64,000 bases of DNA, taken from contig NZ_CP008884.1 of the NCBI RefSeq assembly GCF_000725385.1, forward strand, positions 3,720,001 through 3,784,000. Reading direction: 5' to 3'. Source of the stretch: Dyella japonica A8 (lineage in GTDB: Bacteria > Pseudomonadota > Gammaproteobacteria > Xanthomonadales > Rhodanobacteraceae). How positions within the stretch are numbered: the stretch's first letter is position 1; each line of letters begins with the position of its first letter. The notes below the pieces were generated by a model, which did no database searches, had not been told where the DNA came from, and saw only the letters and a program-made list of their open reading frames with translations. This document shows, one piece after another, positions 47,930-60,237 of this stretch. A program made the translations under genes and the position numbers.

Positions 47930-48015
47930 CGTCATTCCCGCGAAGGCGGGAATCCAGTGACTTTGCTTTCGAGCGCTTTGAAAGTCGCTGGATTCCCGCC
48001 TTCGCGGGAATGACG
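47930..48015. repeat. Double ATTCCCGCGAAGGCGGGAAT palindrome
   Basis: Perfect 28-bp arms (47930-47957 and 47988-48015), each itself an ATTCCC-N8-GGGAAT palindrome, lie between acnD and prpF. It is a textbook member of the dispersed family in this window. Confidence 0.92.
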
Positions 48016-48038
48016 AGAAAGACTGAGGTCAACAGAGA

Positions 48039-50633
48039 TCAAGCTGCCTGCGAAGCCTCGATGAAGTCCTGCGCAAAACGCTGCAGCACACCACCCGCCT
48101 CGTAGATCGACACTTCCTCCGCCGTATCCAGGCGGCACGTCACCGGTACCTCGACGCGCTCGCCATTCTTGCGGTGGATGACCAGCGTGAGATCCGCGCG
48201 CGGCGTGCGCGCACCGATCACGTCGAAGGTCTCGGTGCCGTCGATGCCTAGCGTCTTGCGGTTGGTGCCGGGCTTGAACTCCAGCGGCAGCACGCCCATG
48301 CCGATCAGGTTGGTGCGGTGGATGCGCTCGAAGCCTTCGGCCGCGATCGCTTCCACGCCGGCAAGACGCACACCCTTGGCTGCCCAGTCACGCGACGAGC
48401 CCTGGCCGTAGTCGGCGCCGGCGATCACGATCAAGGGCTGCTTGCGATCCATGTAGGTCTCGATCGCTTCCCACATGCGCATGACCTTGCCTTCCGGCTC
48501 TACGCGGGCCAGCGAGCCCTTCTTCACCTCACCATCGACCACCGCCATTTCGTTGATCAGCGTGGGGTTGGCGAAGGTGGCGCGCTGCGCGGTCAGGTGA
48601 TCGCCGCGGTGGGTCGCATACGAATTGAAGTCCTCTTCCGGCAAGCCCATCTTGGCGAGGTACTCGCCAGCGGCGCTGTCGAGCAGGATCGCGTTCGACG
48701 GCGACAGGTGATCCGTGGTGATGTTGTCGCCGAGCACCGCCAGCGGGCGCATGCCCTTGAGCGTGCGCTCACCGGCAAGCGCGCCTTCCCAGTACGGCGG
48801 TCGGCGGATATAGGTGCTCTGCGGACGCCAGTCGTACAGCGGCGCAGCACTTGTGCCGGTGTGACCCGTGCGCGCGAACATCGGCTCGTAGACCTTGCGG
48901 AACTGCTCAGGCTTCACGCTGGAGGAAACAATGGCGTCGATCTCTTCGTCGCTCGGCCAGATGTCCTTGAGCGTCACCGGCTGGCCGTTGGCATCGATGC
49001 CGAGCACATCCTTCTCGATATCGAAGCGAATGGTGCCTGCAATGGCATAGGCGACAACCAGAGGCGGCGAGGCCAGGAAGGCCTGCTTGGCATACGGATG
49101 GATGCGGCCGTCGAAGTTGCGGTTGCCCGACAGCACGGCGGTGGCGTACAGGTCGCGATCGATGATCTCCTGCTGGATCGCCGGATCAAGCGCGCCGGAC
49201 ATACCGTTGCAGGTGGTGCAGGCAAACGCGACGATGCCAAAGCCGAGCTTCTCCAGATCCGGCAGCAGGTTCGCTTCCTTCAGGTACAACTCCACCGCCT
49301 TGGACCCGGGCGCGAGCGAGCTCTTCACCCACGGTTTGCGCGTGAGGCCGCGCGCATTGGCATTGCGTGCAAGCAAGGCGGCGGCGATGACGTTGCGCGG
49401 GTTGCTGGTGTTGGTGCAGCTGGTGATGGCAGCGATGATCACCGCGCCATCGGGCATCTGGCCCGGTTGCTCCGTCCACTCACCGGCAATGCCGCGTGCA
49501 GCCAGATCAGACGTCGGCAGGCGCTTGTGCGGGTTGGAAGGTCCGGCCATGTTCCGCACCACGGAGGACAGGTCGAACGTCAGCGTGCGTTCGTACTGGG
49601 CTGCGGCAAGCGTGTCGGCCCACAGGCCCGCAGCCTTGGCATAGGTTTCCACCAGCTTGACCTGCTCGTCGCTGCGGCCGGTGAGGCGCAGGTAATCGAT
49701 GGTCTGGCCGTCGATGAAGAACATCGCGGCAGTGGCGCCATATTCGGGCGCCATGTTGGAGATGGTCGCGCGATCGCCCAGCGTGAGGCTGGCCGCGCCT
49801 TCACCGCGGAATTCCAGATACGCGCCGACCACCTTCTCCTTGCGCAGGAATTCGGTGAGTGCGAGCACGATGTCGGTGGCGGTGATGCCGGGCTGGCGCT
49901 TGCCGGTGAGCTCCACGCCCACGATGTCGGGCAGGCGCATCCACGACGCGCGGCCGAGCATCACGTTCTCTGCTTCCAGGCCGCCCACGCCAATGGCGAT
50001 GACGCCGAGCGCATCGACGTGCGGCGTATGGCTGTCGGTGCCCACGCAGGTGTCCGGATAGGCGACACCGTCCTGGACCTGGATCACCGGCGACATCTTC
50101 TCCAGGTTGATCTGGTGCATGATGCCGTTGCCCGGCGGGATCACGTCGACGTTCTCGAACGCCTTCTTGGTCCAGTTGATGAAGTGGAAACGGTCTTCGT
50201 TGCGGCGATCCTCGATGGCGCGGTTCTTCGCGAACGCATTCGGATCGAAACCGCCGCACTCCACGGCCAGCGAGTGATCGACGATCAGCTGCACCGGCAC
50301 CACCGGGTTCACTTTCGCCGGGTCGCCGCCGCGCTCGGCGATGGCGTCGCGCAGGCCGGCAAGGTCCACCAGCGCTGTCTGGCCGAGGATGTCATGGCAC
50401 ACCACGCGCGCCGGGAACCACGGGAAGTCGCGCTCGCGCTTGCGCTCGATGATCTGCTTCAGCGACTCGGAGAGGATCGCCGGATCGCAACGGCGCACCA
50501 GGTTCTCGGCGAGCACGCGCGAGGTATAGGGCAGCGCGTCATAGGCGCCCGGCTGGATCGCCTCCACGGCGGCGCGCACATCGAAATAATCCAGCGACGT
50601 GCCGGGGAGGGATTGGCGGTAAGCGGTATTCAT
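48039..50633 (-). CDS. acnD: Fe/S-dependent 2-methylcitrate dehydratase AcnD
   Basis: AcnD is an aconitase-like [4Fe-4S] enzyme that dehydrates 2-methylcitrate together with PrpF. From ATG 50633 it has 864 residues. An ATG at 50642 would add three. Cluster cysteines lie in AITSCTNTSNPRN and FACTTCNGMSG. Substrate motifs include GTDSHTPHVDALGVIAIGVGG near the middle and GADYGQGSSRDWAAKG at the C-terminal swivelling domain. Length and motifs match AcnD rather than AcnA. It leads prpF and prpD. prpC and prpB lie 6 kb away on the same strand. Confidence 0.95.
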   Translation of the reverse strand: MNTAYRQSLPGTSLDYFDVRAAVEAIQPGAYDALPYTSRVLAENLVRRCDPAILSESLKQIIERKRERDFPWFPARVVCHDILGQTALVDLAGLRDAIAERGGDPAKVNPVVPVQLIVDHSLAVECGGFDPNAFAKNRAIEDRRNEDRFHFINWTKKAFENVDVIPPGNGIMHQINLEKMSPVIQVQDGVAYPDTCVGTDSHTPHVDALGVIAIGVGGLEAENVMLGRASWMRLPDIVGVELTGKRQPGITATDIVLALTEFLRKEKVVGAYLEFRGEGAASLTLGDRATISNMAPEYGATAAMFFIDGQTIDYLRLTGRSDEQVKLVETYAKAAGLWADTLAAAQYERTLTFDLSSVVRNMAGPSNPHKRLPTSDLAARGIAGEWTEQPGQMPDGAVIIAAITSCTNTSNPRNVIAAALLARNANARGLTRKPWVKSSLAPGSKAVELYLKEANLLPDLEKLGFGIVAFACTTCNGMSGALDPAIQQEIIDRDLYATAVLSGNRNFDGRIHPYAKQAFLASPPLVVAYAIAGTIRFDIEKDVLGIDANGQPVTLKDIWPSDEEIDAIVSSSVKPEQFRKVYEPMFARTGHTGTSAAPLYDWRPQSTYIRRPPYWEGALAGERTLKGMRPLAVLGDNITTDHLSPSNAILLDSAAGEYLAKMGLPEEDFNSYATHRGDHLTAQRATFANPTLINEMAVVDGEVKKGSLARVEPEGKVMRMWEAIETYMDRKQPLIVIAGADYGQGSSRDWAAKGVRLAGVEAIAAEGFERIHRTNLIGMGVLPLEFKPGTNRKTLGIDGTETFDVIGARTPRADLTLVIHRKNGERVEVPVTCRLDTAEEVSIYEAGGVLQRFAQDFIEASQAA

Positions 50634-50765
50634 AGATATCAAGAACCCTGGGGACGAACGCCGGGCTGACGTGGTCTGCCTATTTTAGCGGGAGAAAACC
50701 TTTTCCTTAAGGGGTTTGGCTTGACTGGTATGCACGGCGGCATCGACAATAGTGGGATACTGATC

Positions 50766-50905
50766 CCAAAAGGGAGTAGTTCCGGGCACAGGCTTCATCC
50801 GTGCTCTTGCGGTGGTCGTCATCACGGGTGCAACCGCACCCCGGTCACTGCAGCGGCTCTGCCGCGAACGAGACTTTTGCAGTAACAACGGGCCGCGCGT
50901 GTCCG
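50766..50905 (+). promoter_or_regulatory. yybP-ykoY-type (manganese) riboswitch before terC
   Basis: The 310-nt gap upstream of the TerC gene holds AAAAGGGAGTAG (50768-50779), the signature 5' loop of yybP-ykoY RNAs. Paired segments and GTGCAACCGCACC follow, then the closing CGAGACTTTTGC (50891-50902). In other bacteria this RNA senses Mn2+ and controls TerC-like or MntP exporters. I see the two hallmark loops but have not folded the RNA. Confidence 0.8.
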
Positions 50906-50942
50906 TCGTTGCTGCATTTGTCTTACGCGCAGAGACACGCTC

Positions 50943-51629
50943 ATGGAACTTGCCGTTACCGAATTCCTCTCCGGCCTGATGGCCATCGTGCTGCTCGATC
51001 TCGTGCTCGCGGGCGACAACGCCATCGTGATTGCACTGGCGGCACGCAACCTGCCCCGCCAGATCCAGAAGAAGGCCGTGCTCTGGGGCACCGTGGGCGC
51101 CGTCGCGGTGCGCCTGGTGCTCACCGGCATGGTCGTGTTCCTGCTCGAGCTGCCGGGCCTGATGCTGGTGGGCGGCCTGCTGCTGGTGCCGATCGCCTGG
51201 AAGCTGCTGCAACCCGATGACAAGCCCACGCACGCCATCGGCGCGGCCGGCAGCTTCTGGACGGCGATGCGCACGATCATCGTCGCCGACGCACTGATGG
51301 GCCTGGACAACGTGCTGGCCATCGCGGGCGCCGCCAAGGGCCATATGGCGCTGGTGATCATCGGCCTGGCGATCAGCGTCCCGCTGGTGGTGTGGGGCTC
51401 GTCGCTGATCCTGCGCCTGATCGAACGCTTCCCGGTGATCGTCACCATCGGCGCGGGCGCCATCGCCTGGACCGCCGCGCGCATGATCGCGCACGACCGC
51501 TGGCTGGCCCCCTGGTTCGAAACGCATGCGTGGACGGCCTATGTACTCGATGTCCTGCTGGTCGTCGGCGTGTGCCTGGGGGGATGGCTGATGCAGCGTC
51601 GCCGCCTTCGCGCCCAGGCATCCGCTTGA
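50943..51629 (+). CDS. TerC-family integral membrane protein (probable manganese exporter)
   Basis: The 228-residue protein has about seven membrane helices. The TerC signatures are LDLVLAGDNAIVIALAARNLP in the first part and IIVADALMGLDNVLAIAGAAKGH in the second, each with the conserved Asp-Asn that can coordinate metal. Family members such as YkoY and MeeF/Alx are linked to Mn2+ export and metalation of exported proteins. The yybP-ykoY-type leader just upstream supports manganese control. A GST gene follows 57 nt downstream. Confidence 0.9.
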   Translation: MELAVTEFLSGLMAIVLLDLVLAGDNAIVIALAARNLPRQIQKKAVLWGTVGAVAVRLVLTGMVVFLLELPGLMLVGGLLLVPIAWKLLQPDDKPTHAIGAAGSFWTAMRTIIVADALMGLDNVLAIAGAAKGHMALVIIGLAISVPLVVWGSSLILRLIERFPVIVTIGAGAIAWTAARMIAHDRWLAPWFETHAWTAYVLDVLLVVGVCLGGWLMQRRRLRAQASA

Positions 51630-51686
51630 GGGCGACGCGGCCGGCGCGCGACACTTTAGGGATAACGCCAACCGGGGAAACTCCGC

Positions 51687-52295
51687 ATGAAGCTGTACTA
51701 CCTGCCGGGCGCCTGCTCGCTCGCCGACCATATCGTCCTTGAATGGATTGGCCAGCCCTACGAAGCCCATCGCGTCGCACGCGAGGAGCTGGGCTCGCCA
51801 GACTACCTGCACATCAACCCGTCGGGCGTGGTCCCTGCCCTGCAGGAGCCTGATGGCTGGGTGCTGACGGAGAACGTGGCGATCCTCAACTACCTCGCCG
51901 ACAAATTTCCGCTGGCGGGCCTTGGCGGCGACGGCGCACGAGGCCGTGCCGAAGTGAACCGCTGGCTGGCCTTCCTCAATTCGGACCTGCACCCGCTGTT
52001 CAGGCTCGTGTTTCGCCCCGAGCGCTACATCGACGGCGAAGGCGCCCAGGAACAGCTTCGCGCCAAGGCCATTGCCCGCCTGCGGGGCTACTACGAGCGC
52101 CTCGACGCGCAACTGGAAGGCCGCGACTGGCTGACCGGCACGCGCTCGTTTGCCGACCCGTACCTGTTCGTCGTGCTGCGCTGGGCCATGGGCAAGGGCG
52201 TGGACCTGTCCGGCCTGGACCGTCTGGCCCGCTTCCACCAGCGGATGAGCGACGACGCCGGCGTGAAGGCGGCGATGCAACAGGAAGGGCTCTGA
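51687..52295 (+). CDS. Glutathione S-transferase family protein
   Basis: The 202-residue cytoplasmic protein has the GST N-terminal thioredoxin-like domain: MKLYYLPGACSLADHIVLEW with the Cys-Ser pair of beta-class enzymes, then NPSGVVPALQEPDGWVLTENVAIL with the cis-Pro and glutathione gamma-glutamyl site. The C-terminal helical domain contains LTGTRSFADPYLFVVLRWA. The substrate is unknown. It follows terC on the same strand, probably in one unit, and converges with the export cluster. Confidence 0.92.
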   Translation: MKLYYLPGACSLADHIVLEWIGQPYEAHRVAREELGSPDYLHINPSGVVPALQEPDGWVLTENVAILNYLADKFPLAGLGGDGARGRAEVNRWLAFLNSDLHPLFRLVFRPERYIDGEGAQEQLRAKAIARLRGYYERLDAQLEGRDWLTGTRSFADPYLFVVLRWAMGKGVDLSGLDRLARFHQRMSDDAGVKAAMQQEGL

Positions 52296-52326
52296 GCACG
52301 CCGGGCACGCGCACGTGCCCGACGCC

Positions 52327-53772
52327 CTAGAACATCATCGGCATGCGCACAGTCACCGTGACATCAGGCGTGTCGCGCGTGACGCCCACACCCAGCGTGA
52401 AGTTGAGCGTCCGCTTGTCGCTGAAGCGCCATGAGCCACCGATCAGCAGCGTGCCGAGCACGGTTTTCACCGAACCCGGCACGGTCTGACCGTTCTGCTT
52501 GGTCAGGCCGACGAAGCTCTGGTCGTAGCCGATGCTCATCGACGCTTTCTCGTTGAGCGACAGGCCCATGCCGATGCTGACGTCGGCAATATTGCCCACC
52601 TTCACCTTGCCCAGATATTCCGTGCCGCCCAACAGGATGTTGCGGCTCACGTTGTTGCGCGGCACGTTGTACAGGTAACTCAGGTTGCCGAAGAACACCA
52701 CCGGATCGGTGGGATACAGCCACGTCACGCCGGGCTGGATGGACCAGAAGCCCGTTCCCGTCGGCTGCTGCAGCGGCAGTCCGGTGCCGGTGGCGGAAAG
52801 ATCCACTTCGTTGATCACGTTTTCCACGCAGCGATGGACGCAATCAGTGGTGACCTCGAACGGATCCTTGCCGGTGCGCGATTTGACGCGCAACCAGCCG
52901 ACATAGAAAGCCTTGTCCGGACCGCCAACGTTGAGCTGGTAACGAAGGGTCGCTTCGATATCGCCCAAGCCATGGCCACTGGAGCCGAAGGCGTTGTCGG
53001 TGGCGGTGCCGGTGAAGATCTCGCGGCTGATGGTGTCCTGATGCGCATACACGTAGGGCACGCGTACCTCCACCTCCATGCGGTTGGTAATGCCGTAGCG
53101 CGTCGTCAGCCAGCCGATCTGCGTGGTGTTCTTCACCTGACGGGCATCGATCAGGCCGATCAGAATGGCCGGGATCACCGTGTAGCCGACCAGTGCGACA
53201 CGATCGAGCGAGGAATAGCCGAACTGGTAGGCCGGCTCGATGATCACCTTGCCCCTGGGGGTAAGCACACCGGGTTGCTGGAAGATGGGCGCCACCTCGG
53301 GCGGGCGCGTGTCCTGCCTGGGCGCCTGCCCCACCGGCTGCTGCGCCTGATCGGTCGAAGGGGCACTCGCCGCGACGGCATCCGCCGCTGGCATCGGCAA
53401 GGCCGATGCCATGGCGCCGCCTGCGGCGATGTTGCCGGCGCGCTGCTTGTCGAGCACGTCCATGCCCACGGCATGACGCAGGGCCTGGTAGTCGGCCTCC
53501 TGCTGCGCCAGCGCGCGCTTCATGGCATCGAGTTCTTCGATCTGCGCACTGATCTGGCTGCGCATGGCATCGATGCGCTCACCCTGCTCCGCCACCTGCT
53601 TGCGCAGGTCGCTGGCTGGAACGTCGTTCGCCGTTGCGTTCGCTGGCGACGGCGCTGCCGCAGGCAAAGGCACCGGCGGCGTTGAGGATTGTTGCGCCGA
53701 TACGGGCGCGCCAAGCATCGCCAGTCCAGCACACCCTGACGTCAAGAGATACCGCCACGTTGTCTGTCGCAT
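52327..53772 (-). CDS. Outer-membrane barrel with N-terminal coiled coil (FapF-like), probable fibre exporter
   Basis: From ATG 53772 the product has 481 residues. A signal peptide (LLTSGCAGLAMLGAPVSA) is followed by an Ala/Pro-rich spacer, then a coiled coil (about 54-103: DLRKQVAEQGERIDAMRSQI and onward), a second Ala-rich linker to about 160, and a beta-barrel from GVLTPRGKVIIEPAYQFGYS to the C-terminal ...VRMPMMF, whose final Phe is typical of outer-membrane proteins. Signal peptide, coiled coil and barrel in this order are the plan of FapF, the channel of the Pseudomonas Fap amyloid system. Similar proteins are often labelled only as transporter. It is the last gene of the cluster, after a strong hairpin. 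Confidence 0.8.
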   Translation of the reverse strand: MRQTTWRYLLTSGCAGLAMLGAPVSAQQSSTPPVPLPAAAPSPANATANDVPASDLRKQVAEQGERIDAMRSQISAQIEELDAMKRALAQQEADYQALRHAVGMDVLDKQRAGNIAAGGAMASALPMPAADAVAASAPSTDQAQQPVGQAPRQDTRPPEVAPIFQQPGVLTPRGKVIIEPAYQFGYSSLDRVALVGYTVIPAILIGLIDARQVKNTTQIGWLTTRYGITNRMEVEVRVPYVYAHQDTISREIFTGTATDNAFGSSGHGLGDIEATLRYQLNVGGPDKAFYVGWLRVKSRTGKDPFEVTTDCVHRCVENVINEVDLSATGTGLPLQQPTGTGFWSIQPGVTWLYPTDPVVFFGNLSYLYNVPRNNVSRNILLGGTEYLGKVKVGNIADVSIGMGLSLNEKASMSIGYDQSFVGLTKQNGQTVPGSVKTVLGTLLIGGSWRFSDKRTLNFTLGVGVTRDTPDVTVTVRMPMMF

Positions 53773-53815
53773 CGTGCTCCCCCTCCAAAGTACTCCTGGC
53801 TTGGTGTCACACAGA

Positions 53816-53849
53816 CGAAGGCGCCGCGGGGTCGCCCGCGGCGCCTTCG
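53816..53849. terminator. Strong hairpin inside the export cluster
   Basis: CGAAGGCGCCGCGGG / CCCGCGGCGCCTTCG is a perfect 15-bp stem with loop GTCG, in the 113-nt gap between the 171-residue protein and the barrel gene. No clear T run follows, so it may reduce rather than end transcription. Confidence 0.7.
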
Positions 53850-53885
53850 CCATCCCGGATATTTCGTGGCGGTGCGCGTTCCATC

Positions 53886-54401
53886 TCAGTGCACCAATGA
53901 CTGAAGTTGTGCCTGCTGCAGCGCGTCCTGGAAATTCGCCGAGCGGAAGACGTTGAGCGAATTGACCGACGTGTTCAGCGTGGTAATGGTCTGGATCTTC
54001 TGATTGTCCAGCGTGTTCTGGATCAGCGTGCCGGCGCTGACCTGCCCGAGCGACGATGGGTCGAACGTATTGTTGGGCCCGATCTGCGTGAGCGACATGG
54101 AGTTGAGCGCCGTCTGCATGGCCGAGGCCTGTGCGGCCGTCATGCGCCCGATGTCCGGCACGTTGAAACTGGTCTGGGTGACGAGATTGCCGTTGACATA
54201 GACAGCGCGGTTGATGCCGAACGACGCCAGCAACCCATTGCCCACCTCGAATCCACCGCGTATGCCGTCCAGCACGTCCTGACTGACAGGAACCCAGCCG
54301 CCGGCCTGGGGTGCGCCGTCCTCCGCCCTTGCGCCCATGGCATAGGTGGCGCCAAGGCAGAACATCGAACCGATGCAAATGATGCGGAGCGCGGCTCTCA
54401 T
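53886..54401 (-). CDS. Exported protein with a double-glycine motif after its signal peptide
   Basis: ATG 54401 has GAGG 8 nt upstream and gives 171 residues. An ATG at 54407 is too close to that site. A signal peptide (ALRIICIGSMFCLGATYAMGARA) is followed by VPVSQDVLDGIRGGFEVGNG. Leu at -7, Ile at -4 and Gly-Gly at -2/-1 form a double-glycine site of the kind cut by C39 peptidases. The part after it contains FGINRAVYVNGNLVTQT and a C-terminal half rich in N, Q, T and S (GTLIQNTLDNQKIQTIT). It starts 11 nt after the C39 gene. It has the position of fapE in Fap loci. Function inferred only: secreted substrate or matrix part. Confidence 0.8.
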   Translation of the reverse strand: MRAALRIICIGSMFCLGATYAMGARAEDGAPQAGGWVPVSQDVLDGIRGGFEVGNGLLASFGINRAVYVNGNLVTQTSFNVPDIGRMTAAQASAMQTALNSMSLTQIGPNNTFDPSSLGQVSAGTLIQNTLDNQKIQTITTLNTSVNSLNVFRSANFQDALQQAQLQSLVH

Positions 54402-54411
54402 CGCCATATCC

Positions 54412-55092
54412 TCAAAGATCGTCCGGCCCTTTCTTGGGCATCACCATGTTGAAGAGACTGTTGCGATCGACGGCTGTGTCGATCGGCGCCGACGGTGCGA
54501 CCTTCCAGTCATTGGGGCTGTTGAACACCGCCAGGTTGCGGCGGTTGTGGATGACGAACACGAGCCCGCTCGTCCACATGGCCATGAACCGGCTTTGCGC
54601 GATCACCCTCGTACCCCGCGCCGGATCGCCCACCAGCACGCGATCGTTGCGAATGCCCTTGATGACCACGAAGTGGTGATAGCCCTTCTCGTCGATCAGC
54701 ACGATCGCCGGGAGCTTTTCCTGCGCGAGCTTGTCGAGCGGCACGCGGAACCCATCGGCATCAAAACCGTTGGCATCCAGGAAACGCTTGATGTCGAGCA
54801 GCGAGAAGCCTTCTTTGTTGATCTTGGCCCGGTCGCCGTGGGTATACATCTGCTCGAAAGCCACCTGTTCGTCCACCGGGTAGCCGTACTGGTAGGTAAG
54901 CAGCGTGGCGACCGCCGCGGAGCCGCAGCTGAAGTCGTACTTCTGATGGATCGTGGTCTTGTAACGAGCCTCCTTGAGGCTCGTCAGATGAATGCTGTAG
55001 TTGCCGCTGCCGCTGATGACACCCACCGTGGAGGCAGGGCTCCCGGATGGCAGCGCCACCAACATCATCAGTAGCGCTGCGGGAATTTTCAC
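54412..55092 (-). CDS. Exported C39-family cysteine peptidase (FapD-like)
   Basis: C39 peptidases cut after double glycines. The 226-residue protein starts at GTG 55092, which overlaps the preceding stop (GTGA). It begins with a signal peptide (IPAALLMMLVALPSGSPA). The catalytic Cys is Cys56 in YDFSCGSAAVATLLTY, the His is 139/140 in YHHFVVIKG, and the Asp is 156 in VGDPARGT. There is no transporter domain, unlike bacteriocin ABC exporters with fused C39 domains, so the enzyme should work in the periplasm. FapD of Pseudomonas is of this type. The genes on both sides encode proteins with double-glycine motifs. Confidence 0.88.
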   Translation of the reverse strand: MKIPAALLMMLVALPSGSPASTVGVISGSGNYSIHLTSLKEARYKTTIHQKYDFSCGSAAVATLLTYQYGYPVDEQVAFEQMYTHGDRAKINKEGFSLLDIKRFLDANGFDADGFRVPLDKLAQEKLPAIVLIDEKGYHHFVVIKGIRNDRVLVGDPARGTRVIAQSRFMAMWTSGLVFVIHNRRNLAVFNSPNDWKVAPSAPIDTAVDRNSLFNMVMPKKGPDDL

Positions 55093-55514
55093 GGTTTGAA
55101 CTCGACACTGATGACGGTCGCGTTCTGGATGAGCACGTTGCTGCCGGAGTTCTGGATCACTACCGGAATACCCACCTCGCCGTTGAAGGCCCCGCCATTG
55201 ATGACGTTAGCGCCGGAAATGACATGGTCGGCGCTGTCGTTGGTCACCGTGCCATTGAGGCTGGTGTTCTGGGCAATTAGCGTTCCGCCACTCATGCCCG
55301 CGAGTGTGGCGTTGTCGACGCCCGAACCCAGGCCGGGCGCACTGACGGCCTCGCCCTTCGTCACGTCGACGGCCGCGGCGTAGACCGCGATGGGCGATTG
55401 CGCACCATTGAGCAGATAGGTCGCCGGTGTCTGCGCGTTTTGAGCGCTCAGCACCGTAGGCACCACCATCACACATAGCGCGATTGCGCCGGTCATCCCA
55501 TTGAGAATCCGCAC
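55089..55514 (-). CDS. Small exported protein with a double-glycine motif and a QNSG-type C-terminus
   Basis: The start at GTG 55514, with GGGAG upstream, gives 141 residues (ATG 55496 is an alternative). The signal peptide (TGAIALCVMVVPTVLSA) is followed by a region ending NATLAGMSGGTLIAQN. Leu at -7, Met at -4 and Gly-Gly (76-77) form a double-glycine site. The 64 residues after it are rich in N, S, T and G and end in VVIQNSGSNVLIQNATVISV, which resembles the end of the glycine-rich protein encoded just upstream. A beta-rich fibre subunit or nucleator is plausible. The stop overlaps the C39 start. Confidence 0.8.
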   Translation of the reverse strand: MRILNGMTGAIALCVMVVPTVLSAQNAQTPATYLLNGAQSPIAVYAAAVDVTKGEAVSAPGLGSGVDNATLAGMSGGTLIAQNTSLNGTVTNDSADHVISGANVINGGAFNGEVGIPVVIQNSGSNVLIQNATVISVEFKP

Positions 55515-55641
55515 GGCACTATCTCCCTCGGCCTGCGTATCGGACGCGGACGCGCTTTTTGCGCGCCCCGTCCTCAAGGCCTTTGCAGGTGCAGCCGGAC
55601 ATGGCGGAGCGTTGGCTCCACCATGCCGGATACCGTCTCAC

Positions 55642-56568
55642 TCAATGCGCAAAGTTCAGGTTGGCCTGGACATTGACGCTCTGCTGGATCAACGATGCCG
55701 CGCCACTGTTCTGCGCGAGGATCGAGACACCAGCCGCCGCTGCTGCCGAACCGTTCATCTGGTTCGACATGTCGAAGGCACCCGTGGTTGAGTACGCCGT
55801 ACCGCCGTTGCCGCCGTTGCCGCCGGCACCGCCAGCACCTGCGCCACCCGTGCCGCCGCTGCCCGCACCGCCTGCACCACCCATGCCCGCCGTTGCATCC
55901 GACGAACCGCTGGTGCCGCCGGTTGAGGTCGATGCACCGCTATAGCTGCTCGGTGACGAGGCACCCGAAGTGCCTGCACCACCTGCGCCGCCTGCACCTC
56001 CGGCACCGCCAGTGCCGCCGGTCGAGCTGCCACCGCCGGCCGTGCCACTGCCACCGCCGGCATGCGAGTGACTGTGGTTGCTGGCATTGGCGTCGCCGCC
56101 ATCATTGCCGCCGCCGCCACTGCCGCCACCGGCCAGCGAAGCACCGAAAGCGCCCGAATCACCCGATGAACTGCCGGAACCACCGGCGTGACCGCTACGC
56201 GAATGGGCGTCGCCACCGGAGCCGCCGTCACCGCCGTTGCCGCCGATAGCCTTGCCGCCGCGGCCATCGCCGCCACTGCCGCCGCGTCCGCCATTGGCGT
56301 CGCCGTTGTTCGTGCTCCAGTTGCCGATGCCAGAAACACTAAGGTTGGAAACAGTGCCGGTGAGGACGCTGTTGGCTACCGCCGAACTTGAGTTGAAGGA
56401 ATCAGCATTGCCACCGCTACTCGCTGCGGAGCCGTACTGACCAGTCGCATACGTGCTGTAACTGTTGTTGGAATCACTGCTTCCGTGGTTATGGTCATTA
56501 TCCGCAAGTGCGGGGAGAGCCAATCCCATGCCCAGCACGATTGCGGTCGCAATTAGAGTCTTACGCAT
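55642..56568 (-). CDS. Secreted glycine-rich low-complexity protein, possible fibre subunit
   Basis: ATG 56568 lies 8 nt after AGGAG and gives 308 residues. An ATG at 56574 is too close to that site. The signal peptide (LIATAIVLGMGLALPALA) is followed by a Ser/Asn/Tyr-rich stretch (25-90) and a Val-rich patch (VANSVLTGTVSNLSVSGIG). About 170 residues of Gly, Ser and Ala with scattered Asp/His come next. The ordered end has NQMNGSAAAAAGVSILAQNSG and LIQQSVNVQANLNF. The end resembles segments of Fap-type and other amyloid-like secreted proteins. It is the first gene of the cluster and likely the most abundant product. This assignment is inference. Confidence 0.78.
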   Translation of the reverse strand: MRKTLIATAIVLGMGLALPALADNDHNHGSSDSNNSYSTYATGQYGSAASSGGNADSFNSSSAVANSVLTGTVSNLSVSGIGNWSTNNGDANGGRGGSGGDGRGGKAIGGNGGDGGSGGDAHSRSGHAGGSGSSSGDSGAFGASLAGGGSGGGGNDGGDANASNHSHSHAGGGSGTAGGGSSTGGTGGAGGAGGAGGAGTSGASSPSSYSGASTSTGGTSGSSDATAGMGGAGGAGSGGTGGAGAGGAGGNGGNGGTAYSTTGAFDMSNQMNGSAAAAAGVSILAQNSGAASLIQQSVNVQANLNFAH

Positions 56569-56884
56569 AGTCATTACTCCTGGAACGATGCGGTGACCCC
56601 CTGTGAGGCTGGTGTTGCGAGTCCAGCACGGCTTATTCGCAACTTGCATGCCATCGGGGACCGCGTCTCGCCCGCTCACGCGACCGGCGTCATATCGGCG
56701 TTTTCAAGGATTCATGACACGCGGATGGGGCCCTGTAAGGGCGAAGTAATGTAAGAAGTGATGCATCGCCGTTACACCACGGCTGGTGGCGTCCGCGCAT
56801 GCCGGCCTGGAAGCTGTGCAACTAGCGACGGAAGTTCAATGCGTTGCGGGACATTGATGCACCCGGGCTTCGTTTTCGCGGCGA

Positions 56885-56902
56885 TGTATCAAAGCTGATA
56901 CA
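56885..56902. promoter_or_regulatory. Operator-like inverted repeat TGTATCA-N4-TGATACA
   Basis: A perfect 7-bp dyad with a 4-nt spacer lies in the 442-nt gap between the prpC terminator and the export cluster. It is about 315 nt upstream of the first gene of the cluster, so it could be a site for that promoter. No gene is visible in this gap. Confidence 0.55.
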
Positions 56903-56964
56903 CCGGTGCATACGAAACGATAGCAATCCCGTACAGACACATGAACCTCAACGAAACCTGAAAG

Positions 56965-56990
56965 AAAAGGGAGCCTTTCGGCTCCCTTTT
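56965..56990 (-). terminator. prpC terminator (works in both directions)
   Basis: AAAAGGGAGCC / GGCTCCCTTTT with loop TTTC, 20 nt past the prpC stop, with A and T runs on both sides. Confidence 0.92.
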
Positions 56991-57010
56991 TTTGACGCGG
57001 CGCGTGGCGA

Positions 57011-58156
57011 TCAGCGCTTCTCGATCGGCACGTAGGCCTGGTCTTCCGGGCCCGTGTAGTTGGCGCTAGGGCGGATGATCTTGCCGTCCTCGCGCTGTTC
57101 GATCACATGCGCGCTCCAGCCAGAGGTACGGGCGATCACGAACAGCGGGGTGAACATGGCCGTCGGCACGCCCATCATGTGGTAGGCGCTGGCCGAGAAC
57201 CAGTCGAGGTTGGGGAACATCTTCTTCTGCTCCCACATCAGCTTCTCGATCTTCTCCGACACGTCGAACAGGGTCGGATTGCCGCCCTCCGTGCAGAGCT
57301 TGCGCGAGACTTCCTTGATGATCTCGTTGCGCGGATCGGACACGGTGTAGACCGGGTGACCGAAGCCGATGATGATTTCCTTGCGCTCGACGCGGGCGCG
57401 GATGTCCGCCTCCGCCTCAGCCGCGTTGCGATAGCGCGCGATGATTTCCATCGCCACTTCGTTCGCACCGCCGTGCTTGGGACCACGCAGTGCGCCAATG
57501 GCGCCGGTGATGGCCGAGTACATGTCCGAACCGGTACCGGCGATGACACGGGCCGTGAAGGTGGACGCGTTGAACTCGTGCTCGGCGTAAAGGATCAGCG
57601 ACTTGTCCAGCGAGTGCGCGTGCAGTTCGCTCGGCTTCTTGCCGTGGAGCAGGTGCAGGAAGTGCCCGGCGATGGACTCATCGTCCGTCTCCGTTTCGAT
57701 GCGCTTGCCGTTGTGGCTGTAGTGGAACCAGTACAGCAGCATGGAGCCGAAGCTGGCCATCAGGCGGTCGGCGATATCGCGGGCGCCGGTGACGTTGTGG
57801 TCATCCTTCTCCGGCAGCACGGTGCCCAGCACCGAACAACCCGTGCGCATCACGTCCATCGGGTGCGTGGCGGCCGGCAGCAGTTCCAGCGCGCTCTTCA
57901 CCGGCGCCGGCAGGCCGCGCAGGCGCTTGAGCTTGGCGCGGTAGGCGTTCAGTTCCGCCCAGTTCGGCAGTACGCCGTGCACCAGCAGGTAAGCCACTTC
58001 CTCGAAGCAACCCTTGGCGGCCAGGTCGTGGATGTCATAACCGCGGTAATGCAGGTCGTTGCCGCTGCGCCCCACCGTGCAAAGCGCGGTGTTGCCTGCG
58101 GCCACGCCGGACAGCGCGACGGATTTCTTGGGCTTGGGAAGGGTTTGCTCGCTCAT
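57011..58156 (-). CDS. prpC: 2-methylcitrate synthase PrpC
   Basis: PrpC condenses propionyl-CoA and oxaloacetate to 2-methylcitrate. From ATG 58156 it has 381 residues, typical of type II-like methylcitrate synthases. It opens with [19 protein letters not shown] and the citrate-synthase-family [12 protein letters not shown]. Catalytic residues fall in [19 protein letters not shown] (His), [13 protein letters not shown] (His) and ANYTGP near the end, with [12 protein letters not shown] between. It lies 75 nt after prpB in one unit and ends in a strong terminator. Confidence 0.96.
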
Positions 58157-58231
58157 CGGATACGTCTCCTCAATGCATGCGACTCTGCCGGCCACGGCAG
58201 GCGTGCCGTGGCCGACGAATGGGGTGGCTGG

Positions 58232-59122
58232 TCAGGCCTTCTTCTGGCTGGCGAACAGCGCGTCGAGCTTGTCTTCGTAGGCGTTGTAGCCAAGGAAGTC
58301 GTACAGGTCGGCGCGGGTCTGCAGCGTGTCGATGATGTTCTTCTGCGTACCTTCGCGTCGCACCGTCTCGTAGAAGTTCAGCGCGGCCTTGTTCATGGCG
58401 CGGTAGGCGCCGCAGCAGTACAGCGCGATGTCCACGTTGGCTTCACGCAGCTCGTCGGTGGTGAAGAACGGCGTGGAACCGAACTCGGTGAGGTTGGCCA
58501 GGATCGGCACCTTCACAGCGGCCTTGAAGCGGCGGTAGTCGTCCAGCGACTTCATCGCCTCGGGGAAGATCATGTCCGCACCCGCCTCGACATAGGCGCA
58601 GGCGCGATCGATGGCGGCATCAATGCCTTCCGCGGCGGCGGCGTCGGTGCGCGCCATGATCACGAAACCGGCATCGGTACGCGCATCCACGGCAGCCTTC
58701 ACGCGGTCGACCATCTCCTCCTTGGGCACCACTTCCTTGCCCGGGCGGTGGCCGCAACGCTTCTGGCCGACCTGGTCCTCAATGTGCACGGCGGCGACGC
58801 CGACGTTGATGAACGAACGGATCGTGCGCGCGATGTTGAACGCGCCGCCCCAACCCGTATCAATGTCCACCAGCAGCGGCATCTGCGTGGCATCGACGAT
58901 GCGGCGTGCGTCGGTGAGCACGTCCTCCATGGTCGAAATGCCCAGGTCCGGGATACCCAGGGAGTTGGCCGCAACACCGCCACCGGACAGGTACAGCGCC
59001 TTGTAACCCACGCGCTTGGCCATCAGGCCAGCATAGGCGGTGATGGCGCCCATCACCTGGAGGGGACTTTCGGCGGCGACGGCGGCGCGGAACCGTGCGC
59101 CGGGGGATTCGATCTGGGCCAT
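58232..59122 (-). CDS. prpB: 2-methylisocitrate lyase PrpB
   Basis: PrpB splits 2-methylisocitrate into pyruvate and succinate. The 296-residue protein is a PEP mutase/isocitrate lyase family TIM barrel. [18 protein letters not shown] and [18 protein letters not shown] bring the metal-binding Asp residues. The active-site loop is [14 protein letters not shown], with the catalytic Cys. [18 protein letters not shown] follows. It is the first gene of prpB-prpC. No PrpR-type regulator is seen next to it. Confidence 0.97.
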
Positions 59123-59413
59123 GAAACCTCCGCTTATAAAGGCGGGATTTTACCGCAGTACGCGTTCAAGGCCTGTTGCGCGGCAGCATGAATGGTTTCG
59201 AACGGAGCATGTGATGAAAGTAGGTGGTGCTGGCTGCAGGGGCCTACTCATGCAAGGTGCTTTTCAAAGGACGAAGGCTGGTCGTCCAGTGACCTTTCGC
59301 TCGATCGGTGCGTGATGACGACCTGGCTCGCCTGCCGCGGGCTTCCGACCTCCTGCCGGAGGCCGGTCACTTTCCCTTGCTTGCCCAAGTCCCACAGGGA
59401 TTAGCTTCACGTC

Positions 59414-59995
59414 AGAAAGTAACCAAAGAGAAGGGCCCCCGGATGACGCGCCTTCCGGGCCTTCAGCCCGGAAGGTTCGCAGGCGGGTTCCGGGCTTTTC
59501 GACGGGGCTCCTGCCCCGACGAAAAGTGCCGACGATCCCTCCCTGGCACCCCTACGGGGCCTGATCTCCACCCGCTCGCCGCGTCATCAGGGGACCCGGG
59601 AGATCAAGAGCCAAAAGCCAAAGCGAGAACCCGAGCCGTCAGCGGAGCATCTCAAGGTGGCGGGACCCTTGTGGGAGCGCACCCTGTGCGCGACAGCGGC
59701 GTCTCGTAGTCACCGCTCCGTTAGGTTGTCGCGCACAGGGTGCGCTCCCACAGAAAAGCGGGGCGACCGTGCGTATTCCATCGGCGCCGAAGCGAAGCGA
59801 GGCCCCGCTTTAAGTCCTCATCGCCAGGGCGCGTTGCGAAGCGCTTGGAAGTACCCGCTGTGTAGAGGCGGAGGTTGCCAAGCAACAACCTGCCTCACGC
59901 GTTCGGGCTTATCCCCACGAAATGCTGCCAGCTCTGGCTCTTCAGGCCATTTTCTTTGGGTTACTTTTCTTTTGGGCCAGCAAAAGAAAAGTGAC
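59414..59995. repeat. Non-coding repeat block with inverted ends
   Basis: The 1.1-kb gap between prpB and prpE (59123-60237) holds no credible gene. It has AGAAAGTAACCAAAGAGAAG at 59414 and a related inverted TTTTCTTTGGGTTACTTTTC at 59950-59969. The latter flows into a hairpin (59960-59995, GTTACTTTTCTTTTG with its inverse). A REP-like hairpin sits between them at 59670. Blocks of this kind recur in Xanthomonadales genomes as far as I know. Confidence 0.6.
59670..59752. repeat. REP-like hairpin, family copy 4
   Basis: Perfect 26-bp arms (59670-59695 and 59727-59752), TGTGGGAGCGCACCCTGTGC and inverse, 31-nt loop. Confidence 0.92.
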
Positions 59996-60237
59996 TCGGC
60001 CTTCGGCAGAAGGTCGAAACGCCCGCTGCGCAAGCGGCCAGATCCCGGGAAAGTCTGAGGCGAAGACCCAACGTGGCCGAAACTGGATGACCAGCCTTCG
60101 GCTGTTGTGAAGCGCCTCCGGCCTACGCCGGGATGATGGTGCTTAGGAAGTCATGAGGCTAGATTGCGCGCCCCCAACCTATCCCCGCGGGGAGCGGCTA
60201 ATTCCGCACGAGAGCGGCAGATAGACGGCGCCCAGAC

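Follow-up and report, generated by a model that had tools for sequence, protein, structure and literature searches.

Double-Glycine Leaders in a Probable Sister Lineage of the Fap System and the Possible Substrates of Its C39 Peptidase

Introduction

The Fap system of Pseudomonas (fapABCDEF) has a C39 peptidase, FapD, and what this enzyme cuts is a question raised anew by a cluster of five genes in Dyella japonica A8. The cluster lies on the minus strand of a 64,000-nucleotide stretch of contig NZ_CP008884.1 (positions 3,720,001 to 3,784,000; hereafter the window, in whose numbering its features are given), and it encodes a glycine-rich exported protein (P1), two small exported proteins (P2 and P4), a C39 cysteine peptidase, and an outer-membrane barrel. 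Judged by its sequences, the cluster probably belongs to a sister lineage of Fap. P4 and P2 carry double-glycine leaders, and this suggests that they are what the peptidase cuts, because the signal they bear is the one recognised by its family.

The literature leaves room for such an answer. With the Pseudomonas operon assayed in E. coli, secretion of FapC needs the active-site Cys of FapD, and FapE is the sole Fap protein fully processed at its N-terminus; according to the same paper, canonical C39 sequences are missing from Fap proteins (PMC5557850, 2017). In 2018 a review still called the FapD substrate "yet to be determined" (PMC6173800), and a review of 2025 ascribes to FapD a presumed role in processing both the N-terminus of FapE and the periplasmic region of FapF (PMC12822426). 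Searches for work on Fap, Fil, periplasmic C39 peptidases, and Dyella, in which subscription papers were mostly and supplements wholly beyond reach, gave no description of the cluster or of the leader among the titles and abstract openings listed.

The cluster consists of the following open reading frames (ORFs; lengths in amino acids, aa):

55642..56568, minus strand: P1, glycine-rich exported protein, 308 aa (ORF)
55089..55514, minus strand: P2, small exported protein, 141 aa, GTG start (ORF)
54412..55092, minus strand: C39 cysteine peptidase, FapD-like, 226 aa (Pfam and NCBIfam matches)
53886..54401, minus strand: P4, FapE-like exported protein, 171 aa from ATG 54401 (173 aa if ATG 54407 is used)
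52327..53772, minus strand: FapF-like outer-membrane pore with an N-terminal coiled coil, 481 aa

An earlier note, made from the letters of the window alone, had described these five ORFs as a Fap-like fibre or matrix export cluster, and all of them do exist as described, on one strand from 56568 to 52327 and in the order P1, P2, C39, P4, barrel. The GTGA overlap that it reported is a 4-nucleotide (nt) overlap between the P2 and C39 genes; its 11-nt spacing needs correcting, since C39 and P4 are separated by 10 nt when counted from ATG 54401 and by 4 nt from ATG 54407. The P4 of the window is entered in the protein database with 171 aa. All five products have signal-peptide-like N-termini, signal peptides being judged by eye throughout.

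Homologues of FapD, FapE, and FapF

The C39 protein matches Pfam PF03412 (1.9e-22) and the NCBIfam FapD model NF058616 (6.9e-40, 136.7 bits); by these matches it is homologous to FapD, as had been proposed, and it is taken to be periplasmic. A catalytic Cys-His-Asp pattern is present in 50/50 C39 proteins of relatives (locus L162 left out), and the same residues are recognised by eye in the window protein. The barrel is FapF-like both by sequence and by predicted fold, its model having a coiled-coil helix at residues 53–101 and barrel strands from residue 176 onward, so that neither the coiled coil nor the kinship with FapF claimed in the earlier note has to be withdrawn.

P4, for which no relative had been named, is by profile comparison a FapE homologue: when 10 P4 proteins were compared with 12 canonical FapE proteins, an E-value of 3.5e-8 (probability 95%) was obtained over an alignment that spans the leader and the following part. 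Canonical FapE proteins were assigned by their position between C39 and barrel together with alignment, the NCBIfam FapE model (NF058559) being run on the FapE of locus L092 alone, which it matches; the same model gives no match to the window P4 at E up to 1. Database searches return 294 relatives of P4; no Pfam domain is found in any of the 120 listed, the named ones being hypothetical or uncharacterized.

Three features by which Fap systems are recognised are accordingly found here (a FapD-type C39 protein with a signal peptide and catalytic residues, a FapE protein, and a FapF-type barrel with a periplasmic coiled coil), and a fourth, FapB and FapC with three Fap repeats, is lacking, one weakly similar unit being found in each of P1 and P2. 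The cluster thus resembles Fap of Pseudomonas (FapF structures 5o65, 5o67, and 5o68 in PDB) in its FapD, FapE-like, and coiled-coil pore components, in their D-E-F order after the subunit genes, and in having two subunit-like proteins with a common repeat unit.

The genes are also kept together in relatives. When named genomes were scanned with the C39 protein, 32 loci were obtained, of which 30 (L029-L058) were used and two (L059 and L060, from Clostridiales and Butyrivibrio, 28–32% identity) were left out. The order P2, C39, P4, barrel on one strand is observed in 29/30 of them, so the arrangement is not a matter of chance; P1 is recognised upstream by homology in 26/30 (all except L049, L050, L056, and L057). 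The 29 syntenic loci come from Dyella, Rhodanobacter, and Luteibacter species and from one metagenome-assembled gammaproteobacterium (L052), while the more distant L057 showed C39 and barrel on the first pass and its P2- and P4-like genes later. Because the barrel is FapF-like and the genes stay together, the earlier reading is not refuted; its observations are confirmed, and its interpretation as a whole is partly supported.

A Probable Sister Lineage Rather Than Canonical Fap

Is the cluster then simply a canonical Fap operon without fapA, set apart by mere divergence? FapD, FapE, and FapF homologues in the canonical D-E-F order would agree with this, and loss of fapA is among the commonest known Fap variants (PMC3792158). 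As such loss is common in accepted Fap systems, the lack of fapA does not by itself exclude Fap; there is no sixth gene in the cluster, which is where fapA was looked for, the rest of the genome being unsearched.

The trees speak otherwise. Quick maximum-likelihood trees were built for the C39 protein and for the barrel (58 rows each; supports are Shimodaira–Hasegawa-like approximate likelihood ratio test values, SH-aLRT, with no bootstrap), leaving out 17 of the 29 Rhodanobacteraceae-type loci as well as L111, L121, L124-L128, and L162-L166. The 34 rows of this system fall on one side of a branch with SH-aLRT 99 (C39) and 98 (barrel), and the 13 rows of canonical Fap are grouped with 93 and 99, respectively. 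In both trees the cluster stands outside the canonical clade, no row known to be from Pseudomonas being among those included; long branches are seen for L057, L116, and L120 in the C39 tree and for L057, L118, L120, and L122 in the barrel tree. Moreover, in genomes G021 and G025 a C39 protein of this system occurs alongside a canonical locus. The P1 and P2 proteins of the window match no FapB or FapC model and lack the three Fap repeats, and the leader of the FapE-like protein ends in GG instead of the G[RK] of canonical FapE (see below). On these grounds, canonical Fap identity was rejected, descent by simple divergence from an operon without fapA is quite unlikely, and the cluster is a distinct version, placed by its sequences in a sister lineage of Fap; the distinctness suspected in the earlier note is thereby upheld.

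It was noted in 2013 that FapD and FapF likely belong to larger families (Dueholm 2013, PMC3792158). A review of 2018 reports five more phyla with fapD-fapF pairs and sets a minimum of four fap homologues (PMC6173800), a filter by which the present clade would probably have been missed.

Double-Glycine Leaders of P4 and P2

The double-glycine leaders, absent from the account in the earlier note, are located as follows:

54252..54287, minus strand: P4 leader, VSQDVLDGIRGG, residues 41-52 as numbered from ATG 54407 (173 aa), with the predicted cut ahead of Phe53
55284..55319, minus strand: leader of P2, VDNATLAGMSGG, residues 66-77, next residue T, predicted cut leaving a 64-aa product

According to the rule for C39 substrates, positions -4, -7, and -12 are hydrophobic and the cut follows GG, GA, or GS (PMC10885120). 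The window P4 satisfies it with V, L, and I at -12, -7, and -4, and P2 with V, L, and M, GG following in both. In P4 the motif is constant: RGG[FY] is present in 50/50 P4 proteins of other loci and RGG in 119/120 of the listed database relatives, the remaining one being without that region. R50, G51, and G52 make up three of just four invariant columns in an alignment of 41 sequences, and RGGF is found in 9/9 loci that were reached via the FapD model instead of a P4 search (L102-L110). In P2, GG is found in 37/49 proteins, the part behind it measuring 63–70 aa in 36 of these 37; GG as a universal trait of P2 was therefore rejected. As to these counts, a first tally had misplaced the motif in one P4 (read as RGGM, likely that of L155, whose true leader is LDDMRGGF), and a stricter pattern gives 50/50; it was misplaced as well in three P2 proteins without GG (L057, L102, and L107). 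L162, in which the reading frames are cut short, is excluded from the P4 and P2 counts. L163 and L166 stand outside the 50 and 49 and have RGGF and RGGI in P4, and P2 with and without GG, respectively.

As a test of the leaders, a matrix of 12 columns was trained on 37 P4 leaders from other genomes and applied to the 398 stop-to-stop ORFs of the window of at least 80 aa, with 2000 shuffles as a control. P4 ranks 1/398 (score 19.97, reached by 1/2000 shuffles) and P2 ranks 2/398 (18.57, reached by 0/2000), the next ORF scoring 10.98. Among 2286 ORFs of L029-L058, the top 60 comprise 29 P4, 14 P2, 13 barrels, and 4 others, one of which is the P4 of L057; P4 proteins of these loci belong to the training set and rank high by construction, while the window P4, all P2, and all barrels were outside it.

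Taken together with the homologies, these leaders make it likely that in this sister lineage of Fap a periplasmic C39 peptidase cuts P4 and P2 after GG and thereby enables export through the FapF-like pore. All five products would enter the periplasm by Sec, and the peptidase would remove a second N-terminal leader, after RGG52 in P4 and after SGG77 in P2, as in bacteriocin exporters. Processed P4 might then prime or anchor export, processed P2 (64 aa with one repeat unit) could have a minor or nucleating role, and P1, rich in glycine, would be the major secreted subunit. The products would leave through the pore and assemble outside, and a leader-like site in the linker of the pore may serve for trimming of its coiled coil.

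A number of observations weigh against this reading. Cleavage by C39 is a prediction made from the motif. In 12/49 P2 proteins, GG is lost or the leader was not found (RGT, RGM, RGR, RAK, SGR, and others stand in its place), no P2 at all was found in L161, and position -4 lies within LIVMA in just 32/50 P4 proteins, as do all three positions taken together (32/50). With NCBIfam bacteriocin-leader models no match is obtained for P2 or P4 of the window (E up to 1) or for P4 of L103, P4 of L109, and FapE of L092 (E up to 10), a test that HMMER filters make partial. P1 has no leader (its best matrix score, 2.29, is equalled or exceeded by 817/2000 shuffles) and just one repeat-like unit. Direct comparisons with the canonical Fap repeat are weak for the ends of P2 (0.0013–0.019) and of P1 (0.41). 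The scores with NCBIfam models fall far below the equivalog cut-offs, 136.7 against 330 bits for FapD and 154.1 against 700 for FapF. The P4 model has moderate confidence (pLDDT, the predicted local distance difference test score, 70.8), and a fold search with it gave no PDB match at E 0.001. Finally, two of the 23 further loci described below rest on weak matches, L102 (P2 0.031, P4 0.018) and L166 (P4 1.2e-5).

The Same Element in Canonical FapE

Canonical Fap was compared by means of a matrix built from 50 P4 leaders and stripped of its last column, which was applied to 1042 ORFs of 13 canonical loci. The top 13 of 1042 are precisely the FapE-position proteins of the 13 loci, each with RG[RK][FY]; because P4 and FapE are homologous, these ranks speak for conservation of the motif and not for its independent occurrence. 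RG[RK][FY] is also found in 29/29 database relatives of FapE that have the region (1/30 is without it), and a FapE-like protein of Aeromonas caviae agrees with this Arg/Lys form. The canonical FapE leader thus has Arg or Lys at -1; the three hydrophobic positions are kept in 12/13 and GG in 0/13. The FapE set compared consists of the 13 loci and the database relatives and contains no Pseudomonas FapE.

Proteins in the place of FapA in L129 and L130 (in part also in L094 and L096) have a leader-like LSDADYSSM or LSDEDFARL without RGG.

That FapE keeps the element with Arg/Lys in place of the last Gly, in 13/13 loci and 29/29 database relatives with the region, is what lends weight to the main rival of cleavage. 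RGG could be an uncut docking or chaperone site, with C39 gripping the leader helix of unfolded P4 and P2 and passing these proteins on to the pore, proteolysis taking place elsewhere or being absent. The 12/49 P2 proteins without GG look as if binding outweighed cutting, and C39-like domains acting as chaperones are known (PMC5557850, PMC6173800). Yet the catalytic Cys-His-Asp is retained in all 50 C39 proteins, an active-site mutant of FapD abolishes secretion (PMC5557850), and an RGG invariant across 41 aligned P4 proteins seems to go beyond what docking needs; the docking model is, therefore, regarded as unlikely.

If cleavage after the double glycine is the preferred account of this cluster, a wider one can be proposed with about even chances of being right, namely, that FapD-type enzymes are periplasmic double-glycine leader peptidases and that across an amyloid-type exporter superfamily FapE-like proteins (here also P2 and perhaps the pore) have, after the Sec signal, another leader, whose removal at one motif licenses export. 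In canonical Fap the leader would then be the same but the specificity shifted (G[RK] for GG), and the FapD substrate and site would be readable from sequence. Since the sister system fits the C39 rule and the same element stands in FapE of 13/13 canonical loci, cut sites can be predicted to the residue for the FapD substrate question, which becomes directly testable. In addition, with the cluster a further lineage of putative matrix exporters comes into view, observed in alpha-, beta-, and gammaproteobacteria, whose subunit-like genes match no family in the libraries run on the window.

The Subunit-Like Proteins P1 and P2

P1 consists mostly of low-complexity Gly/Ser/Ala sequence with a single repeat-like unit. 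It finds nothing in Pfam at E 1 and just one irrelevant match (0.34) in NCBIfam, and no FapB or FapC model of NCBIfam matches the window P1 or P2. In the earlier note, the small and the glycine-rich proteins were said not to look like FapA, FapB, or FapC by their repeats; this was not right, since P4 turns out to be FapE-like (3.5e-8), and P1 and P2 share with P1-type proteins of relatives a unit that weakly resembles the Fap repeat.

This unit is best seen through P1-type proteins of other loci, whose repeat reads NTIKDNAFQxAEGITQVQQNNGxNNAMQQ. The C-terminal unit of P1 relatives aligns with the P1-type protein repeats of L103-L106 at 5.3e-8 (hhalign), and that of P2 relatives with the P1-type repeats at 1.2e-7 (reversed control 0.67). 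Between the P1-type repeat and the canonical Fap repeat, the similarity is weak (6.2e-5 or 6.5e-4 under two settings; reversed controls against the Fap repeat, 0.28–0.71). The repeat sets were picked by regular expressions, and 16/28 P1 picks fitted. By analogy with FapC and FapB, P1 is a candidate major (FapC-like) secreted subunit, and P2, with its one repeat unit, a candidate minor (FapB-like) subunit.

Whether such subunits would build an amyloid is a separate matter. A glycine-rich surface or matrix protein, P1, that is not amyloid, with P2 and P4 as secretion helpers, is suggested by the low-complexity composition of P1 with its one repeat-like unit and by tblastn, which in many relatives aligns just the ends or parts of P1. 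This alternative is rated as somewhat unlikely, because the pore belongs to an amyloid-exporting family and because P1-type proteins with four imperfect Asn/Gln-rich repeats each are encoded in L103 (5571-6500 and 8992-9981) and L104 (5577-6512).

L103 carries two P1-type genes, and the proteins of L103 and L104 form a useful set relating the single-unit glycine-rich P1 to repeat proteins.

For P2, a small exported precursor with a double-glycine leader that adjoins a C39 peptidase and has a post-GG part of nearly constant size (63–70 aa in 36/37), it may be asked whether the processed product, of about 64 aa, serves as a bacteriocin or a signal peptide once secreted, instead of forming part of a fibre. 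The Sec-type N-terminus, the repeat unit shared by P2 and P1, and the absence of an ATP-binding cassette (ABC) transporter among the five cluster genes and five typed neighbours make this very unlikely.

A Leader-Like Element in the Pore

Between the coiled coil of the barrel and a low-confidence linker, one more stretch resembles the leaders:

53434..53469, minus strand: leader-like element of the barrel, VGMDVLDKQRAG, residues 102-113, weak candidate cut site

L-x3-[RS]-[AG]-G occurs in 29/30 barrels of L029-L058, and in the matrix scan the element of the window scores 7.79 (rank 7/398, 65/2000 shuffles as high). It fails the C39 rule (V, L, Q, and AG in the window), position -4 being non-hydrophobic in 29/29 and GG being present in 10/29; as an established leader it was rejected for the failure at -4. 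Nor is it universal, since no linker of L103-L109, L156, L159-L161, or L057 has L-x3-R-[AG]-G, as judged by eye in a check that covered these loci and not L153-L155. A double-glycine motif in FapF has been noted earlier in print (PMC5135000).

Elements of this kind were also observed in the linker of a canonical FapF (L091, 4681-6018), which has VPDSELERLAGRG, and in that of the Cupriavidus barrel (L163, 6853-8361), which reads SLARKRGGQ.

Other Related Systems

The Fil "putative pilus" system of Acinetobacter (FilA-FilF) shares with the cluster a C39 protein (FilB model, 2.4e-34) and a barrel (FilC, 1.8e-10), and FilA in L165 has a leader-like stretch, MDDAALSAATGQ. In contrast to the cluster, whose barrel matches FilC much more weakly, L165 has no recognised P4- or FapE-like protein and carries extra genes annotated as a fatty-acid transporter and FilF; it is not in the trees, and its C39 gene was read as two pieces in that record. 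The cluster stays below the cut-offs of both Fil models, scoring 119 of 475 bits with FilB and 40.7 of 630 bits with FilC.

Peptidase-containing ABC transporters, which export class II bacteriocins, microcins, and lanthipeptides, have the C39 domain and the same -12/-7/-4/GG leader rule. Here, however, the peptidase is free and exported, the presumed substrates have a Sec-type N-terminus before the leader, and the cluster has no ABC transporter. The outer-membrane channel COG4313 from Pseudomonas putida F1 (4rl8) differs, with an identity of 13%; in the literature it is regarded as taking up hydrophobic compounds (PMC5557850, PMC6173800).

Distribution Beyond the Family

A search of 274 genomes of the class with the FapD model gave matches in 36, and the 330-bit cut-off was passed in 0/274. 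Flanks were inspected at 38 places in 33 of the 36 genomes (all except G000, G085, and G301) plus G021 and G024, and by profile scores and gene content three groups were told apart: the present system (L102-L110), canonical Fap (L091-L101, L129, and L130), and others. A P4-profile search matched 15/398 genomes of the phylum, and the flanks of 12 were examined; P4 is present in the resulting L151-L161 by construction, as they were found with its profile, whereas C39, P2, and the barrel were not selected for.

In 23 further loci that belong to this system (L057, L102-L110, L151-L161, L163, and L166), P2 immediately precedes C39 in 22/23, and P4 immediately follows it in 22/23, the exception, L152, being due to overlapping open frames. 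The barrel shares their strand in 13 loci and is opposite in 10. Named members outside the family are an alphaproteobacterium, Croceicoccus marinus, and Cupriavidus metallidurans CH34, so that the restriction to Xanthomonadales made in the earlier note was too narrow.

In L154 (genome G437), P2-C39-P4 occurs twice in tandem with a single barrel on the opposite strand. Other loci with C39 and barrel, L114 (5525-6775) and L116 (1-3540), encode small exported proteins with stretches such as LTEAQMDQVSAG or LSDNQLDQMTAG just behind the signal peptide, which resemble a double-glycine leader with AG at its end. A Fil-like small protein of L114 has a weak match (0.063) to the peptide pheromone VP1.

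Genomic Neighbourhood

A hairpin with a T-run that resembles a terminator (56986-56961) is seen by eye behind the gene upstream of the cluster, which is therefore probably a transcription unit of its own. The automatic terminator scan did not return this hairpin, and a scan of 52000-57100 for sigma-70-type promoters found none.

Neighbours were typed as follows:

58232-59122, minus strand: methylisocitrate lyase
57011-58195, minus strand: 2-methylcitrate synthase
48039-50642, minus strand: AcnD, on the other side of the cluster

A riboswitch is often found with genes of the YjbE type. The plus-strand gene 50943-51629 is matched by the model R_switched_YjbE, and in 48000-60000, including the surroundings of this gene, no Rfam family reached its gathering threshold. 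Together with a GstA-like gene, this YjbE-family metal transporter lies between AcnD and the cluster, which is thus surrounded by 2-methylcitrate-cycle genes (48039-59122); among the named loci, a citrate-synthase-type gene is found upstream within about 3 kb in 29/30.

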